Below, one piece after another: positions 3,127 to 19,382 of a stretch of DNA of 64,000 nt. The notes under the pieces are model-generated. The model did no database searches. It was given only the letters and a program-made list of their open reading frames with translations, and was not told where the DNA came from. The translations under genes were made by a program, and so were the position numbers. The stretch lies in contig JAHEHL010000002.1 in NCBI GenBank assembly GCA_024644595.1, positions 227,774 through 291,773 of the forward strand, read 5' to 3'. This DNA comes from Porticoccaceae bacterium. GTDB taxonomy: Bacteria > Pseudomonadota > Gammaproteobacteria > Pseudomonadales > Porticoccaceae. Position 1 is the first letter of the stretch, and every line of letters begins with the position of its first letter.

Positions 3127-4341
3127 ATGAGTTTTGAGCTTAAATCTCCGATTGCGCAATACAGCCTGGTCACCCTCAGCTACTGGGCCTTCACCCTTAG
3201 CGATGGTGCCCTGCGGATGCTGGTGGTGCTGTTCTTTCATCAGCTTGGCTACAGCCCCCTGGAAATCGCCGGACTGTTTTTACTCTATGAGTTTTTCGGC
3301 GTTGTCACCAATCTGTATGGCGGCTGGCTGGCCAGCGCCATCGGGCTAACTATTACTATGCAGTTGGGTTTGGCGCTGCAAATCATGGCTTTGTTGATGC
3401 TCGCGGCGGATAACTCTCTGCTTACAGTCGCCTATGTGATGGTCGCCCAGGCACTCTCGGGAATCGCCAAAGATCTCAATAAGATGAGCGCCAAGGCGAG
3501 CATAAAGTCACTGGTTCCGGCCAATGCTCAGGGGCAACTCTATCGCTGGGTTGCCCTGCTGACCGGCTCAAAAAATGCACTTAAAGGACTCGGCTTTTTT
3601 CTCGGCGGATGGCTGCTGGCGATTGTCGGTTTTCAGGCTGCTGTTGGACTGATGGCCGCCATTCTGGCGCTGGCGCTAGTCGCCAGCCTGCTGTTGCTCG
3701 AGCGCTCGACAGGAATTGCCAAACAGCAGCAAGCCTTTAGCAGCCTGTTTTCAAACAATAGCGGGATCAACCGATTGAGTGCGGCGCGCTTTTTTCTTTT
3801 TGGTTCACGGGATATCTGGTTTGTTATCGCCCTGCCGTTATTTCTGCAGAGCCAGCTGCAGTGGAGTTATCTACAAGTGGGCACTTTGCTCGCCGCCTGG
3901 GTAATTGGCTATGGCTTTGTGCAGGCAGCAGCGCCAAAACTGACCGCAAAGACTGGCGACAGACACCACCCTTCCGGAACCAGCGCATTTAAGTGGGTAG
4001 TTCTGCTCTGTCTGCTCCCCGCGGCCATCGCTGTCAGTCTCTTTGTCAGCGGAGACAACAGCTTTTGGGTTGCCATCAGTTTGGTGCTCGGGCTATTGGT
4101 ATTTGGAGTCTTCTTTGCCATTAACTCCTCGATACACTCTTACCTCATTGTTGCCTATGCCCGAGAGGACGGTGCGTCTATGGATGTAGGGTTTTATTAT
4201 ATGTGTAATGCCGCCGGCCGCTTGGTGGGCACCTTGTTGTCCGGCTGGGTCTACCAAAGCTCTGGACTGATCGCCTGCCTGCTGATCTCATCGGCGATGC
4301 TACTGGCGGCAGCTTTTATCTCCCGCAAGCTCCCGGCCTAA
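3127..4341 (+). CDS. arsJ: Organoarsenical efflux MFS permease ArsJ
   Basis: A 404-residue major facilitator protein with about twelve hydrophobic segments across its length. The N-terminus (TLSYWAFTLSDGALRMLVV, then FFHQLGYSPLEIAGLFLLYE and TNLYGGWL) carries the signature pattern of ArsJ, the exporter of 1-arseno-3-phosphoglycerate. The ATG follows the gapdh TAA after three bases, so the two are almost certainly co-transcribed and probably translationally coupled. Together they turn arsenate into an unstable organoarsenical and pump it out, giving arsenate resistance without reduction to arsenite. No transcription regulator is seen within the pair. Confidence 0.92.
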   Translation: MSFELKSPIAQYSLVTLSYWAFTLSDGALRMLVVLFFHQLGYSPLEIAGLFLLYEFFGVVTNLYGGWLASAIGLTITMQLGLALQIMALLMLAADNSLLTVAYVMVAQALSGIAKDLNKMSAKASIKSLVPANAQGQLYRWVALLTGSKNALKGLGFFLGGWLLAIVGFQAAVGLMAAILALALVASLLLLERSTGIAKQQQAFSSLFSNNSGINRLSAARFFLFGSRDIWFVIALPLFLQSQLQWSYLQVGTLLAAWVIGYGFVQAAAPKLTAKTGDRHHPSGTSAFKWVVLLCLLPAAIAVSLFVSGDNSFWVAISLVLGLLVFGVFFAINSSIHSYLIVAYAREDGASMDVGFYYMCNAAGRLVGTLLSGWVYQSSGLIACLLISSAMLLAAAFISRKLPA

Positions 4342-4415
4342 AAAGACCACAGACTTTTCCTGCCTGTTCATCTCTGCTAGGGTACAGTCCTTTAAATCAA
4401 CCACAAGACAATCAT

Positions 4416-4784
4416 ATGACTGATAACAATGCGGCAATGGATCCCAATGGGCTGTTTCGTGAAGAGAACTATACCGACCAGAAGATGGGCGCGATTCGCA
4501 AGCTTATCCCCGTTAAAGCAGATGGGAGTGACGACCCTGACCGCGAGACTCAATTCTTTGGCTCGGCGCAAGTGATGACCCCTATGGGAGCTGTGCCGCT
4601 AAACTTTGCCCTCGACGGCGATACGATCGGTGAGGCGGCGAGCGATTTTGCCGACAAGGCACAGATTGCGGTTGAAGAGGCAGGCAGAGAAATTGAGAGG
4701 ATGCGCAGAGAGCAGGCATCCAAAATCGTTGTCCCCGGTCAGGGCGGTGGCATGGGTGCACCTGGCGGCGGAATTATTACCTGA
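4416..4784 (+). CDS. Small acidic conserved hypothetical protein
   Basis: A 122-residue soluble protein without signal peptide or membrane segment. The N-terminal half contains MGAIRKLIPVKADGSDD and FFGSAQVMTPMGAVPLNF; the middle (about residues 68-100) is a predicted amphipathic helix (DFADKAQIAVEEAGREIERM); the end is a glycine-rich flexible tail (GQGGGMGAPGGG). I have the impression of similar cytoplasmic hypothetical proteins in pseudomonads, but know no function. It starts at the ATG at 4416 about 75 bases after arsJ and may be in its own transcription unit. It is convergent with the HutC-like gene, 41 bases apart. Confidence 0.75.
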   Translation: MTDNNAAMDPNGLFREENYTDQKMGAIRKLIPVKADGSDDPDRETQFFGSAQVMTPMGAVPLNFALDGDTIGEAASDFADKAQIAVEEAGREIERMRREQASKIVVPGQGGGMGAPGGGIIT

Positions 4785-12589: not shown

Positions 12590-13996
12590 TTAGACGCTGT
12601 AGTACATATCAAACTCGACCGGATGAGTGGTGTGCTCAACACGGTAGACTTCTTCCATCTTCAGATCAATATAGGCATCGATCATGTCGTCAGTGAACAC
12701 GCCACCAACTGTCAGGAACTCGCGATCAGCGTCAAGGTTTTCCAGAGCTTCGCGCAAGCTACCACAAACCTGAGGAATAGCCGCGGCTTCTTCTGCTGGC
12801 AGATCGTAGAGATCCTTGTCCGCAGAATCCCCAGGGTGCATCTTGTGCTTGATGCCGTCGAGGCCAGCCATCAAGAAGGCGGCAAACATCAGGTAAGGGT
12901 TGGCAGTCGGATCACCAAAACGGACTTCAATACGCTTGCCACGTGGACTTGAAACGTAAGGAATACGGATCGCTGCAGAGCGGTTGCGCGCAGAGTAGGC
13001 CAGCATAACCGGCGCTTCAAAGCCAGGAATCAAGCGCTTGTATGAGTTAGTCGAGGCGTTGGCAAATGCATTCAGAGACTTGGCATGTTTGATAATGCCA
13101 CCGATGTAATGAAGTGCCATTTCGCTCAGACCCGCGTAGGCATCGCCGGCAAACTGATTCTCACCATCTTTTGAGAAAGACATATGACAGTGCATACCCG
13201 AACCGTTATCGCCAACTACAGGCTTAGGCATAAAGGTCGCTGTTTTGCCGTAGGCATGCGCAACATTGTGTACGCAGTACTTAAGAATCTGAACCTGGTC
13301 CGCTTTCTTGACCAGCGTGTCAAATCGCACACCGATTTCACACTGACCGGCAGTGCCAACTTCATGGTGGTGTACTTCAATATCCAGACCCATCTGCTCC
13401 ATAGCATTACACATAGAAGCACGCAGGTCATGCAGGCTGTCAACTGGCGGTACAGGGAAATAGCCGCCTTTGACGCCCGGGCGGTGACCCATATTGCCAT
13501 CTGTATAATCGTTGCCAGAAGACCAAGCCGCTTCTTCTGAATTGATCTTATAGAAAGCACCGCTCATGTCGACGCCCCACTTGATGTCATCGAAAACGAA
13601 AAATTCTGGCTCCGGGCCGAAGAACGCGGTATCACCGAGACCGGTAGACTGAAGATATTTCTCTGCACGCTCAGCGATAGAGCGTGGATCGCGCTCATAG
13701 CCTTGCATGGTCGATGGCTCAACGATACCGCAACGGATAATCACTGTTGGCTCGTCAGTGAAAGGGTCAAGTACAGCAGTGCTGTCATCAGGCATCAGGA
13801 TCATGTCAGATTCATTAATGCCCTTCCAACCAGCAATAGACGAACCGTCAAACATCTTGCCTTCAACGAAGAAATCATCGCCTACTTCGCCAATGGGAAT
13901 CGAAACGTGCTGCTCTTTACCTTTGGTATCAGTAAATCGCAGGTCAACCCAGCGCGCTTCGCTTTCTTTAATCAGGTTTAAAGTCTTCTCAGACAT
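12590..13996 (-). CDS. glnA: Glutamine synthetase, type I
   Basis: A 468-residue GSI-type enzyme that ligates ammonia to glutamate using ATP. The start at 13996 ([21 protein letters not shown]) is supported by a GGAGGA ribosome site and the family N-terminus. Metal and substrate regions are present: [44 protein letters not shown] and NRSAAIRIP. The adenylylation tyrosine lies in [10 protein letters not shown], consistent with GlnE in this window. A sigma-54 promoter and two NtrC palindromes lie upstream. It neighbours the thiI-like remnant. Confidence 0.98.
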
Positions 13997-14153
13997 GTGT
14001 TCCTCCAATTTTGGATGTGGATATGCAATGTAAATTGTACTTTTGTAACAAATGTTATTCCGGCTCAAATATTGCGCTGACCGGACTGTCCGAGGGATTC
14101 TAAACAGACTTTTCAGTGCAGCGTTTTCAGCACACAACTTTCCGTCTAGAAAC

Positions 14154-14169
14154 TGCAATACTCATGCCA
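14154..14169 (-). promoter_or_regulatory. Sigma-54 promoter of glnA
   Basis: On the minus strand TGGCATGAGTATTGCA has the conserved GG and GC elements of a -24/-12 promoter. Predicted transcription start is near 14143, about 147 bases before the glnA ATG. Confidence 0.8.
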
Positions 14170-14346: not shown

Positions 14347-14519
14347 TTTGGGCAATATTTATTCGGTAGTTGTCTTCGAGCAGCAGCAGTATAATGCCTC
14401 AACAAATTTTTTCCGCCACTGTTTCTGGCCAATTATCAAACGACGCTTGCTGGCGTGGGTGAAAATTTATTCAGCACATAGCCGCAACAACAGCCATGCA
14501 CCAAAATCAAGGCTTTCAA

Positions 14520-14813
14520 ATGGCAACAATCGACACCGTCTCAACGCCTCGGCCGGGTGATATTATTATCGATATACGACATCCGGATGAGGTGGAACTC
14601 CAACGGTTAGTCTTGAGTAGCAATACCATTATCTGCCTTCCCTTTTTCAATCTAGCCCAGCAACTTGACACGCTCGACCGCCAACAGCCCTATCTGCTCT
14701 ATTGCAAAAAAGGCATTATGAGTCGGCTGCACGCGGACACTCTCCAAAAGAATGGGTTTCAGCAAGTAGGCATTTACAGTCCAAAAGGATGGCCGACGAG
14801 CGCAAAGCCATAA
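14520..14813 (+). CDS. Stand-alone rhodanese domain homologous to the C-terminus of ThiI
   Basis: A 97-residue single rhodanese domain. DIIIDIRHPDE, LPFFNLAQQLDTLD and LLYCKKGIMSRLHA are very similar to the C-terminal rhodanese domain of full-length ThiI (motifs DIR, LPFYKL and CxxGxMSR), including the catalytic Cys (about residue 62). It sits between glnA and typA, exactly where full-length thiI lies in Pseudomonas, but the NFLD, THUMP and PP-loop parts are absent. The ATG at 14520 has AAGG 7 bases upstream; an ATG at 14496 is the alternative. In Salmonella the ThiI rhodanese domain alone supports thiazole synthesis, so this protein may serve thiamine but not tRNA s4U. Confidence 0.8.
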   Translation: MATIDTVSTPRPGDIIIDIRHPDEVELQRLVLSSNTIICLPFFNLAQQLDTLDRQQPYLLYCKKGIMSRLHADTLQKNGFQQVGIYSPKGWPTSAKP

Positions 14814-14891: not shown

Positions 14892-15036
14892 GATAGTTAG
14901 TCGCCATTCCTTCTGTGAAGCGACTATATTTATTCCTTAGTCTACCTTCCGACTCAGTTTAAGTCTCGGCCAGCCCTCAGCCAAAAGCGATGAGCTCGTG
15001 CCATGGCTAACCAAAGTCAGCCGCAGGACGCAGCCG

Positions 15037-15756
15037 ATGATGAGCACCGAAAATCTGCTCGGGGAATTCAAGGAAGTTAAATATTCCAGCCCCCGCTCGT
15101 TAAATAGGTCAACTCAAGTTGAGCTGGAAAAGCGTGCCGTTAAAAACATTACTGCAGGACTTATCGTATCGGCAATCGGTGCCGTGCTTCTCCTGGCACT
15201 GTCTAACCTGTTTAACAGTGACTTTTATGCCAGTCACAGCACTATCCATCTCGCCACCGATCCCGTTCCCTACACATTGACTGAAACAACATTCTGGCAA
15301 TGGATCTGGCTGGCCTTGGTTTTCGCTTCTAACCTCAGCCTATGGCTGTGGCTGATGAATATGAGCTGGCAAAAAGAACTTCGAAATAGGCAGCAACGCG
15401 CCATTATCATCGTCTGCTCTCTGACCTGCGCCGCACTCTATGGTGCCGCAGCCATTATTTTTAATCGCCCTGGCAATCCTGGGCAGTCTGCTTTAACAAC
15501 CAGTATAATGGTCACCGTCGCTCTGGCCTGGCCGCTTACATACGCCCTGGTCAACCCGCTGCGCCATCTCTTTCTGAGCCTGATTTTCGTACCACTGGCA
15601 ATAACACTGCTGATTGACCCACAAGACCTGAACCCGATACTTTTAGCGCTGACCGCAATCGCTTATATGATTCTCAATCGCAATGCGATAAATCACCGCA
15701 GCGCCTTTACCCTTTCGACCCGTGAAATGCTCAAGGCCAACGAGCGCTCTGAATAG
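15037..15756 (+). CDS. Membrane N-terminal part of an amber-interrupted GGDEF/EAL protein
   Basis: A 239-residue fragment with about six hydrophobic segments (roughly residues 40-60, 85-105, 120-140, 152-170, 178-193 and 200-213), forming a membrane sensor module. It ends MLKANERSE followed by TAG at 15754-15756. The same frame continues without shift into the PAS-GGDEF-EAL protein beginning at 15787, so both parts look like one protein of about 813 residues with a premature amber codon. The ATG at 15037 follows an AGGA site; a GTG at 14998 is also in frame. The 5' half alone could be a membrane protein, but a nonsense mutation is more likely. Confidence 0.7.
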   Translation: MMSTENLLGEFKEVKYSSPRSLNRSTQVELEKRAVKNITAGLIVSAIGAVLLLALSNLFNSDFYASHSTIHLATDPVPYTLTETTFWQWIWLALVFASNLSLWLWLMNMSWQKELRNRQQRAIIIVCSLTCAALYGAAAIIFNRPGNPGQSALTTSIMVTVALAWPLTYALVNPLRHLFLSLIFVPLAITLLIDPQDLNPILLALTAIAYMILNRNAINHRSAFTLSTREMLKANERSE

Positions 15757-15786
15757 GTCATTGCCACCAGCCAAAAAATCGCGAGT

Positions 15787-17478
15787 TTGATTGAACAGAC
15801 ACCGCTTGGTTTTATTGAGTGGAATAAGCAGCGTGAAATAATCAGCTGGAATCCTGCCGCCACAACGATCTTTGGCTACGCAAAAGAAGAGGCGCTGGGC
15901 CGCACTACAGACTTTCTATTTGACGATAATAAGAGCTTTCTACTGCAACAGGTGGAAAATGATCTATTCCTGTTTGGCAAGGACTTCACCGGCACTGCGG
16001 AAAACATAACCCGAGATGGCACGGTGATTATCTGCGAGTGGAACGACACTCCCCTGTTCGACAACGCCATGAATGTAGTCGGTGCAGCGTCATTTGTGGA
16101 AGACGTTACTGATCGCGTCAATCTTGAAACGCGCATAAAGCAACAGGCCTATTTCGATCCGCTGACTGGCCTGCCCAACCGCCACCGCCTGATGGAAGAG
16201 CTAAACCGCGTGGTTGCACTGGCCCAGCGCAAGCAAAGTTATTGTTCTCTGCTATTTATCGACCTTGATCACTTCAAGGAAATAAACGACACCAGAGGAC
16301 ACCATTACGGCGACCTGGCACTGACGCTTTTTGCACAGCGATTGCGCAAAATTATTCGCACTGAAGAAGCAGTAGCGCGCCTTGGAGGTGACGAATTTGT
16401 CGTGCTACTGGAAAATCTGAGCAGGGAAGAGGAGCCCGCACGGCTGCGAATCTCGCAGGTCGCCGAGAAGATTATTGACGCTGCTCGCGAGCCTTTCATT
16501 ATCAAAGATGAGAAATTCCGTATCAGCTGCAGTATCGGAATCGTGTTATTTAATGACGCCAGTTGTGACGGCGACGCCATTTTGCAGCAGGCTGACAAAG
16601 CGCTTTACACAATCAAGCGCGAAGGCAAATCCAACTATTATTTCCATAACCAAAAATTACCTTCCGAGCTGCAAACTCAGACCGCTCTGCTGGAGCAGCT
16701 GCGCGACAAGAGCAAAAGCAAATCCTTTTTGCCCTATTATCAGCCGATACTCGATACCCGCAGCAATCTGATCAGCGGTCTGCAGGTATTTTTGCGCTGG
16801 AAAAATCCAAACAATGAACTAATCACCGCCAGTGAAATTATCACACTGCTCGAATCCGGATCGATGATTGTCGATATCTCGATAGCAGTGCTTGAGCAGA
16901 TCTGCCAGCAGATTGACCTTTGGCGGGGGCAGGGCATTTGGCGAGATGATCAGCAAGTCTATTTCACTCTCAGCCTGCGCGAAATGGAGCATCCCTCATT
17001 TACCGCCACTGTTGAATCTCTGCTAAAGAAATACGCCATCAATCCGCATAACTTAATCTTTAACATTCACACCGAAACCCTGCCAAAAATACACAACCCA
17101 TTAACATTGCAGATCAACAGCCTCCGAGCGCTAGGCATCGGATTTGTGGTCGACAACGTCGGCTATCAGAGCCTGCCGATTCAGAAGCTACGCGAATTTG
17201 AAGTCGACACAATTCGTATTTCGCACAAGCTGATGGCCGAGTGCCCGTACATGGAGAGTTCATGGAACTTAGTTAAAGGGCTTATCGAGCTAGCCAAATC
17301 AGTGGGACTGAAATGTATTGCGCCCTGCGTTGAAGACCCCGAGATTCAGCATCTATTGCTCGACACTGGCTGCCCACTGCTACAGGGAAATTTGCTCGCC
17401 CCACCCTCTCCGGCTACTGCCATTACCCGAATGCTGATCGAACGCACTTTAATTAGCGAAGAAGAATCCACTATTTGA
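15787..17478 (+). CDS. PAS-GGDEF-degenerate EAL protein, C-terminal part of the interrupted gene
   Basis: If expressed on its own it must start at TTG 15787 (in-frame ATG is lacking), giving 563 residues. Order: PAS (about 1-110), GGDEF (about 120-285) with intact RLGGDEFVVLL near residue 200, and a C-terminal EAL-like domain (about 310-555). The inhibitory RxxD site is RTEE, so I-site control is probably lost. The EAL domain has lost its key residues: LQVFLRW instead of EALLRW, VDNVG where DDFG is expected, and RIS where KID is usual, so hydrolysis of c-di-GMP is not expected. It is in frame with the membrane part upstream, across one TAG. Confidence 0.75.
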   Translation: MIEQTPLGFIEWNKQREIISWNPAATTIFGYAKEEALGRTTDFLFDDNKSFLLQQVENDLFLFGKDFTGTAENITRDGTVIICEWNDTPLFDNAMNVVGAASFVEDVTDRVNLETRIKQQAYFDPLTGLPNRHRLMEELNRVVALAQRKQSYCSLLFIDLDHFKEINDTRGHHYGDLALTLFAQRLRKIIRTEEAVARLGGDEFVVLLENLSREEEPARLRISQVAEKIIDAAREPFIIKDEKFRISCSIGIVLFNDASCDGDAILQQADKALYTIKREGKSNYYFHNQKLPSELQTQTALLEQLRDKSKSKSFLPYYQPILDTRSNLISGLQVFLRWKNPNNELITASEIITLLESGSMIVDISIAVLEQICQQIDLWRGQGIWRDDQQVYFTLSLREMEHPSFTATVESLLKKYAINPHNLIFNIHTETLPKIHNPLTLQINSLRALGIGFVVDNVGYQSLPIQKLREFEVDTIRISHKLMAECPYMESSWNLVKGLIELAKSVGLKCIAPCVEDPEIQHLLLDTGCPLLQGNLLAPPSPATAITRMLIERTLISEEESTI

Positions 17479-17540: not shown

Positions 17541-17570
17541 CGCGTCCTTTTGCGCCTACTGGTACCCCTC

Positions 17571-19382
17571 ATGTCCATTGAAAATCTGCGGAATATCGCA
17601 ATCATCGCCCACGTTGACCACGGCAAGACGACTCTGGTTGATAAACTCCTAAGTCAGTCCGGGACTCTCGACCGCAAAGATGTCGGCTCCGAGCGACTGA
17701 TGGACTCCAATGACCAGGAGAAAGAGCGCGGCATCACTATTCTGGCGAAAAATACTGCCATCAAGTGGAATGACTACCGCATCAATATCGTTGATACCCC
17801 CGGTCACGCGGATTTTGGTGGTGAGGTGGAGCGCGTACTGTCAATGGTCGACTCGGTACTACTCCTGGTCGATGCAGTTGACGGACCAATGCCACAGACT
17901 CGCTTTGTAACATCCAAAGCATTCGAGCAGGGCCTGCGCCCAATCGTTGTTATCAACAAAGTTGACCGTCCCGGCGCACGCCCAGACTGGGTTATGGATC
18001 AGGTTTTTGATCTGTTTGACAACCTTGGTGCGACAGACGAGCAGCTAGACTTCCCGGTTATCTATGCCTCTGCCCTCAATGGCATCGCCGGACATGATCT
18101 GGATGATATGGCAGACGATATGACACCGCTCTATGAAATGATCGTCAAAGATGTCCCGTCACCACAGGTTGATGTAGACGCACCCTTCCAGATGCAGATC
18201 TCGGCACTGGCCTACGATAGCTATGTCGGTGTTATTGGCGTTGGCCGCATTACCCGCGGCAAACTGAAGCCCGGTCAGCAGGTAATCGTGAAATCCGCCG
18301 ATGGCAAAGAGCGCAAGGGAAAAGTACTCAATGTTAAAGGTTATCTAGGGCTCGAGCAGATCGAGACGCAGCTGGCCAGTGCCGGCGATATCGTCTGCAT
18401 CAACGGCATTGATGGATTGAGCATCTCCGATACGCTGTGCGACCCTGAACATGTTGAAGCACTGCCCGCGCTGAGTGTCGATGAGCCTACGGTAAGCATG
18501 ACATTCATTGTCAATGACTCACCATTTGCCGGTCTCGAGGGTAAATTTGTAACCACCCGTAATATTAAAGAGCGCCTTGAGCAAGAGCTGATTCACAACG
18601 TTGCATTGCGCGTAGCGCCGGGCGACACTCCGGATAAATTTATTGTCTCCGGCCGCGGTGAATTGCACCTGTCAGTATTGATTGAAACCATGCGCCGCGA
18701 AGGCTTTGAATTAGGTGTGTCGCGTCCCGAAGTGGTACAGAAAATTGTTGATGGCGCCGTGCACGAACCCTTTGAGCAGGTCGTTATTGATGTTGAAGAA
18801 CAGCACCAGGGCGCGGTGATGGAAGAACTTGGCACGCGCAAAGCTGAACTCACCAACATGGAACCGGACGGCAAAGGCCGTGTGCGGCTGCAATTTATCA
18901 TGCCCTCGCGAGGCCTGATCGGTTTCCGCGGCGCGTTCCTGACTCTGACTTCAGGTTCGGGGATTATGACTAGTATCTTTGATCACTACGGGCCGATAAA
19001 AGAGGGCGAAACGCACTCACGCAAAAACGGCGTACTGATTAGCATGGTTAAGGGCAAAACGGCCGCTTACGCACTGTTCAACATTCAGGCCCGCGGTCGT
19101 CTATTCTTAGGTCATGCGGTAGATATTTACGAGGGTCAGGTTGTCGGCATTCACTCTCGCTCAAACGATCTGGTCGTTAACCCGATCAAGGGCAAGCAGC
19201 TGACCAATGTTCGTGCCTCGGGAACCGATGAGGCCCTGACACTGGTGCCGCCGATCAAGCACACGCTTGAGCAGGCACTGGAATTTATCGAAGACGATGA
19301 ATTGGTGGAAGTTACTCCTCACAGCATTCGTATCCGCAAGAAGTTATTGACTGAAAACGAGCGCAAACGCGCGCCAAAATAA
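17571..19382 (+). CDS. typA: Ribosome-associated GTPase TypA/BipA
   Basis: A 603-residue translational GTPase. The start at ATG 17571 ([21 protein letters not shown]) is preferred to the TTG at 17550 because it matches the family start. G1 is AHVDHGKT, G3 DTPGHADF and G4 NKVDRP. The later domains contain [19 protein letters not shown] and the C-terminal TypA-specific [14 protein letters not shown]. BipA aids late 50S assembly and stress responses such as cold growth. It keeps its conserved place downstream of the glnA-thiI region. Confidence 0.97.

Follow-up and report, generated by a model that had tools for sequence, protein, structure and literature searches.

A stand-alone ThiI rhodanese domain retained in the SAR92 clade, and its possible role as a sulfur carrier for the molybdenum cofactor

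The window, by which we mean the whole 64,000-nucleotide stretch of Porticoccaceae DNA analyzed here, contains an open reading frame for a protein of 97 amino acids placed between divergent glnA and typA genes, with a split PAS-GGDEF-EAL gene sitting between it and typA (Table 1). The limits given for this frame are its ATG and the last nucleotide of its stop codon, while the use of an alternative in-frame ATG upstream at 14496, present in the mechanical list of open reading frames, would result in a protein of 105 amino acids. The listed frame of glnA probably starts too far upstream. A single in-frame TAG (15754-15756) interrupts the membrane-PAS-GGDEF-EAL gene, which forms one open frame in 20 of the 21 relatives possessing both parts (with the second part at least 60% identical); the TAG represents either a sequencing error or a fresh break.

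Table 1. Coordinates of the stand-alone domain and of the genes flanking it in the window
Feature	Coordinates	Strand	Basis
Stand-alone ThiI C-terminal rhodanese domain, 97 aa	14520..14813	+	TIGR04271, Pfam Rhodanese, AlphaFold model
glnA (glutamine synthetase), conserved divergent neighbour	12590..14158	-	ORF; synteny in relatives
PAS-GGDEF-EAL gene, flanking, outside the system	14998..17478	+	ORFs, Pfam
typA/bipA, conserved downstream neighbour	17550..19382	+	ORF; synteny in relatives

The 97-residue protein scored 101 bits against the NCBIfam model TIGR04271 (ThiI_C_thiazole; cut-off 70) and 33 bits against the generic Pfam Rhodanese model (cut-off 22.2), and these matches identify it as the C-terminal domain of ThiI rather than just any rhodanese. 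The catalytic cysteine is retained within LLYCKKGIMSR (the CKKGIMSR loop). An AlphaFold model of the first 93 residues, with 32 related sequences as input, has a mean pLDDT of 88.7, and the PDB chains it matches best come from rhodaneses or from enzymes that include a rhodanese (E values of 2.6e-4 and weaker). The original prediction of a ThiI-like rhodanese frame with its catalytic cysteine at this place was thus confirmed by the frame itself, the TIGR04271 match and the cysteine. Like the homologous C-terminal rhodanese of E. coli and Salmonella ThiI, this stub possesses the same kind of active-site loop and cysteine, and it occupies the place of full thiI in related genera. By contrast, the stub has no NFLD, THUMP or PP-loop domain attached, and none was found elsewhere in its genome, which also gives no match to ThiG.

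That genome (hereafter the window genome, 98.9% complete) belongs to the SAR92 (HTCC2207) genus, and bacteria of the SAR92 clade are free-living and widespread in the sea. The genus (g1, in family f1) was represented by 50 genomes, G000-G049, with the window genome as G000, and the named records matching its loci include marine gamma proteobacterium HTCC2207, MOLA455, SAR92 clade H231 and H921, and Porticoccaceae MAGs. Scanning of contigs with the single window protein gave no match, while an alignment-based scan gave 60 loci.

A comparison with related genomes, suggested alongside the original prediction, recovered full-length thiI in 13 loci (frames of 488-575 amino acids), with both glnA and typA around it in ten of them and only one of the two genes in view in the remaining three; five loci titled Pseudomonas possess full-length ThiI frames. 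When the N-terminal parts of these 13 relatives served as tblastn queries, neither the window nor any of 45 related loci yielded an NFLD, THUMP or PP-loop remnant (best E value 0.16). In a control run against full-length loci, cross-hits were no weaker than an E value of 2.6e-84. The original observation of no trace of these parts in the 500 bases upstream was thereby borne out. A search of the full window genome for a second thiI found none, the best match to the TIGR00342 profile reaching 27 bits (cut-off 264.5) in a protein that is MnmA, and none of the 50 genus genomes possessed a TIGR00342 match above the cut-off. The absence of the ThiI NFLD, THUMP and PP-loop parts elsewhere in the window genome supports loss of the 4-thiouridine (s4U) route, in agreement with the proposed loss of the tRNA role. 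An independent truncation in genus g13 was considered and set aside because one event suffices, with two trees placing g13 either as the sister of the SAR92 genus or inside it on a long branch. Serratia symbiotica (L164) shows a 92-residue rhodanese-domain frame, and this was rejected as a true stub because PP-loop sequence lies upstream in a different frame, indicating a broken thiI.

Of the 50 genus genomes, 44 carry the domain. It passes the TIGR04271 cut-off as a short frame of 95-160 amino acids in 40 of them, and the four further carriers have a lower-scoring copy (G036, 61.5 bits), a frameshifted copy (G017) or copies at contig edges (G033 and G049). It is truly missing in G005, G008, G010, G014 and G035, where the glnA-typA locus is assembled, while its status in G048 is indeterminate and this genome was dropped from the co-loss counts. 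All 41 aligned genus copies (G017 and the edge pieces left out) keep the catalytic cysteine, and the active-site loop motif was found in 44 of 45 loci, including three g13 loci, with the frameshifted G017 being the sole miss. The median dN/dS was 0.20 (68 of 820 pairs, those with dS below 1.5), and the 25 closest pairs listed gave values from 0.05 to 0.44. Changes in the domain of G036 (DLSHP, and an altered active-site loop, CDNGVMSH) and in the loop of G043 (CDNGMMSH), together with the frameshift in G017, raise the possibility that the stub is a decaying thiI remnant without function. However, the invariant cysteine, the loop motif shared even with g13 and the low dN/dS speak against decay, which becomes very improbable given the purifying selection supported for the stub across this diverged genus. 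The proposal of a natural split gene therefore holds in so far as an old and selected truncation is supported by presence in the genus, dN/dS, synteny and the tree.

We then consider what the stub might serve. One explanation is that it donates sulfur for the thiazole of vitamin B1, from IscS via the rhodanese to ThiS-COSH and ThiG, as in Salmonella and as proposed for insect symbionts. This is suggested by the NCBIfam name of TIGR04271, and the isolated ThiI rhodanese domain suffices for thiazole in Salmonella, as cited in passages of PMC5372745 and PMC10654098. According to the latter passages, a ThiI stub of 288 bp occurs in the Arsenophonus symbiont of the louse fly Ornithoica, where the other genes of the thiamine pathway persist and a thiazole role is proposed for the stub, and further rhodanese-only ThiI remnants are cited for Wigglesworthia and Ca. 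Pantoea. The SAR92 stub is like these remnants in that ThiI is reduced to its rhodanese domain; it is unlike them in that its hosts are marine plankton in which ThiG was not found. Using PF05690, a lax model that matched in 14 of 14 control genomes and exceeded its cut-off in 13, no match to ThiG was detected in the window genome, and full-length ThiG (over 300 bits) was present in two of the 50 genus genomes only, G001 and G037. Partial hits in ten other genus genomes reached at most 28.5 bits, with six passing the Pfam cut-off of 23. They all fall inside positions 123-224 of the 247-position model, the frames being 292-493 amino acids long, and probably represent other barrel enzymes. In G001 and G037 (L102 and L103), thiS-thiG lies beside a ThiF/MoeB-like gene with a fused rhodanese (frames of 372 and 376 amino acids; the fusion is based on a Pfam scan for the G001 protein and on the frames for both), so the stand-alone domain need not donate the thiazole sulfur there. 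In addition, the sole ThiS/MoaD-family match of the window genome sits inside its molybdenum cofactor (Moco) cluster. The Thi4 route to thiazole is not known to need ThiI. A thiazole role was accordingly rejected on the ThiG results, leaving it with hardly any probability, and the proposal that the vitamin function is kept did not stand, the suggested thiG search of the full genome having returned no PF05690 match. An automatic "thiazole biosynthesis" label on such ThiI stubs can mislead. The stub is thus real, old and selected, and is explained by neither known ThiI function in the window genome; although the partners for both ThiI jobs are missing from nearly all genus members examined, selection maintains the stub in most of them.

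The sulfur relay of tRNA thiolation offers another possible acceptor. TusA (PF01206) was not matched in any of the 50 genus genomes, and TusC/D (PF02635) was over the cut-off in none of them, with weaker hits in two and no match in the window genome, yet a TusE/DsrC-family protein (PF04358) was found in 45 of the 50. All 20 TusE/DsrC frames read (15 from the genus and five from others) end in a C-terminal cysteine, and MnmA is present in the window genome. In sulfur oxidisers, a rhodanese feeds DsrEFH/DsrC. These observations are compatible with a shortened s2U34 relay running from IscS through the stub and an orphan TusE to MnmA in place of TusA and TusBCD. However, TusE shows no co-loss with the stub, being retained in all 13 stub-less relatives, and we regard such a relay as unlikely. 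Replacement of TusA by the stub within a full Tus relay was likewise downgraded, because TusC/D are also unmatched over the cut-off and TusE shows no co-loss. The TusE/DsrC-family protein of the window genome passes the TusE/DsrC/DsvC model and fails the stricter TusE model; its orphan gene (L166, 3075-3374, contig C10) lies between yccA-like and trmA-like genes, named by eye.

The window genome also carries a Moco cluster on contig C8, with the stub being on contig C4. The cluster comprises formate dehydrogenase alpha, FdhD, a nitroreductase, MoaC, MoaD, MoaE, MobA, MoeB, Mog, MoeA and MoaA, with some names from family scans and others by eye; its MoaD and MoeB fall short of the NCBIfam cut-offs for these proteins. 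The MoeB is a protein of 254 amino acids with no rhodanese match. The ThiS/MoaD family (PF02597) was matched in 41 of the 50 genus genomes, with two of these hits (G001 and G037) adjoining thiG. A search with PF00899 covered 61 relatives without full ThiI, reduced to 60 by dropping G048, and G067 was left out (no ThiI match, locus not found). Rhodanese-less MoeB was found in 41 of 47 stub-bearing relatives and in 4 of 13 stub-less ones, where "rhodanese-less" was judged by frame length with some sequences read, and the MoeB of G040 and G078, cut by contig ends, was counted as such. At a completeness of at least 84%, the counts were 33 of 34 with the stub versus 4 of 12 without it (Fisher P 1.5e-5, kinship ignored). 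The sole stub-bearing exception at this completeness is G036, the genome with an altered active-site loop, which has no MoeB match over the cut-off. The other stub-bearing genomes without rhodanese-less MoeB (G001, G013, G021, G031 and G047) are each 74-82% complete, so their MoeB absences are probably, though not certainly, false.

On a FastTree phylogeny of ntrB, ntrC, glnA and typA pieces with 59 ingroup tips, four of the five stub-loss branches fall where rhodanese-less MoeB is absent, a state accounting for 20% of the total branch length. Simulation gave a P of 0.005, for a test devised once the pattern was visible and following trials of four other candidate partners, namely ThiG, TusE, TusA and TusC/D. 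Neither the stub nor MoeB was found in G008 and G035. In a small-genome subclade, the sisters G043 and G014 differ in that the former keeps stub and MoeB while the latter (84% complete) has neither, and the loop of G043 is altered although its MoeB is kept. G052, a 100% complete genome of another genus outside the tree clade, is without stub, MoaD and MoeB. In G005 (L201), which has lost the stub, a different Moco cluster (34-58% identity to that of the window genome), perhaps acquired by transfer in a reduced SAR92 subclade, encodes a MoeB in a 346-residue frame with a rhodanese-like tail and a cysteine loop; this tail scored 26 bits against TIGR04271 and 19.8 bits against Pfam Rhodanese, the latter below the cut-off of 22.2. 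G010 carries the same cluster, with the end of MoeB beyond the contig, and a fusion would be invisible there as in G040 and G078. Reading of the 370-residue E1-like proteins of G058 and G075 revealed no rhodanese, and TIGR04271 was not matched in these two genomes or in G082 (which has a 391-residue frame). In most cases, then, the stub is lost together with MoeB/MoaD or where MoeB bears its own rhodanese. The exception is genus g10, in which a MoeB lacking rhodanese (by Pfam for G068, by length and eye for the others) occurs in four of five genomes without TusA and without the stub, implying either that another carrier acts there or that IscS serves MoeB directly. Because small genomes lose many genes, the co-loss may partly reflect genome reduction.

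The same data bear on the possibility that the stub works as a sulfurtransferase of general use for persulfide or thiosulfate, or as a donor linked to Moco but serving another acceptor such as FdhD of the formate dehydrogenase, without depending on one essential acceptor. Stand-alone rhodaneses of small size are common, FdhD and formate dehydrogenase lie at the Moco cluster of the window genome, and g10 retains a rhodanese-less MoeB without the stub. By contrast, most copies keep a ThiI-like active-site loop, and loss of the stub coincides mostly with loss of MoeB, making this explanation rather doubtful. We instead favor a role in molybdopterin synthesis, the stub being a predicted persulfide carrier that supplies MoeB/MoaD where E. 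coli uses TusA, with IscS as the presumed donor and MoaD/MoeB as the presumed acceptor, and we give this role an about even chance. In such a scheme, thiI lost its NFLD-THUMP-PP-loop part by a deletion at the original place in an ancestor of the SAR92 genus and its close relative g13; 4-thiouridine was lost with it, and the C-terminal rhodanese survived as a separate gene. IscS would now load persulfide sulfur onto the active-site cysteine of the stub, from which it would pass to adenylated MoaD within the MoeB-MoaD complex, allowing molybdopterin to be formed.

MoaD sulfur is supplied by TusA in E. coli or by the MOCS3 rhodanese in humans, two proteins with no sequence relation (PMC5372717), while E. 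coli ThiI receives sulfur from IscS at Cys456 and the binding regions of TusA and ThiI on IscS partly overlap (PMC2854127). The stub resembles MOCS3 and the MoeB-rhodanese fusions in its predicted role as a rhodanese persulfide donor for the MoaD thiocarboxylate, and differs from them in being separate, of ThiI origin and accompanied by a separate MoeB. It resembles E. coli TusA as a predicted carrier between IscS and MoaD, while it lacks sequence relation to TusA, itself unmatched in the genus. Passages of PMC2593051 raise the question of which donor serves MoaD when MoeB has no rhodanese, and propose a stand-alone rhodanese for this purpose. However, the same source reports GlpE and PspE to be dispensable for molybdopterin synthesis in E. 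coli, and IscS is described in passages of PMC2593051 and PMC2854127 as itself delivering sulfur to MoaD/MoeB, findings that count against a Moco carrier. A second, weaker TIGR04271 match besides the 97-residue domain exists in the window genome, so another rhodanese could serve, and the g10 exception keeps our confidence in the MoeB/MoaD carrier role evenly balanced. Among the matches listed from the open-access literature, none tied a ThiI stub to Moco or reported one in SAR92, as judged by title and abstract opening. The wider proposal, that the ThiI rhodanese was freed as a dedicated Moco sulfur carrier, a predicted third role for ThiI, and dropped where MoeB was lost or became rhodanese-fused, is put forward tentatively and at slightly under an even chance. 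If true, it would provide a real case of the stand-alone rhodanese postulated for rhodanese-less MoeB proteins. The stub separates the ThiI rhodanese from both textbook jobs in a marine clade and suggests a concrete acceptor, and SAR92, with no TusA match, makes the question of the MoaD sulfur donor testable again.

A further difference among these loci concerns glutamine synthetase. In L048, type I glnA is missing and a type II glutamine synthetase of 336 amino acids (3541-4551; best PDB match 4bax, E value 6e-97) is encoded beside ntrBC. A missing type I glnA was noted in eleven genus loci that include ntrB, with the replacement classified in L048 alone, and the g10 loci L194-L198 possess frames of 335-338 amino acids at the same place.
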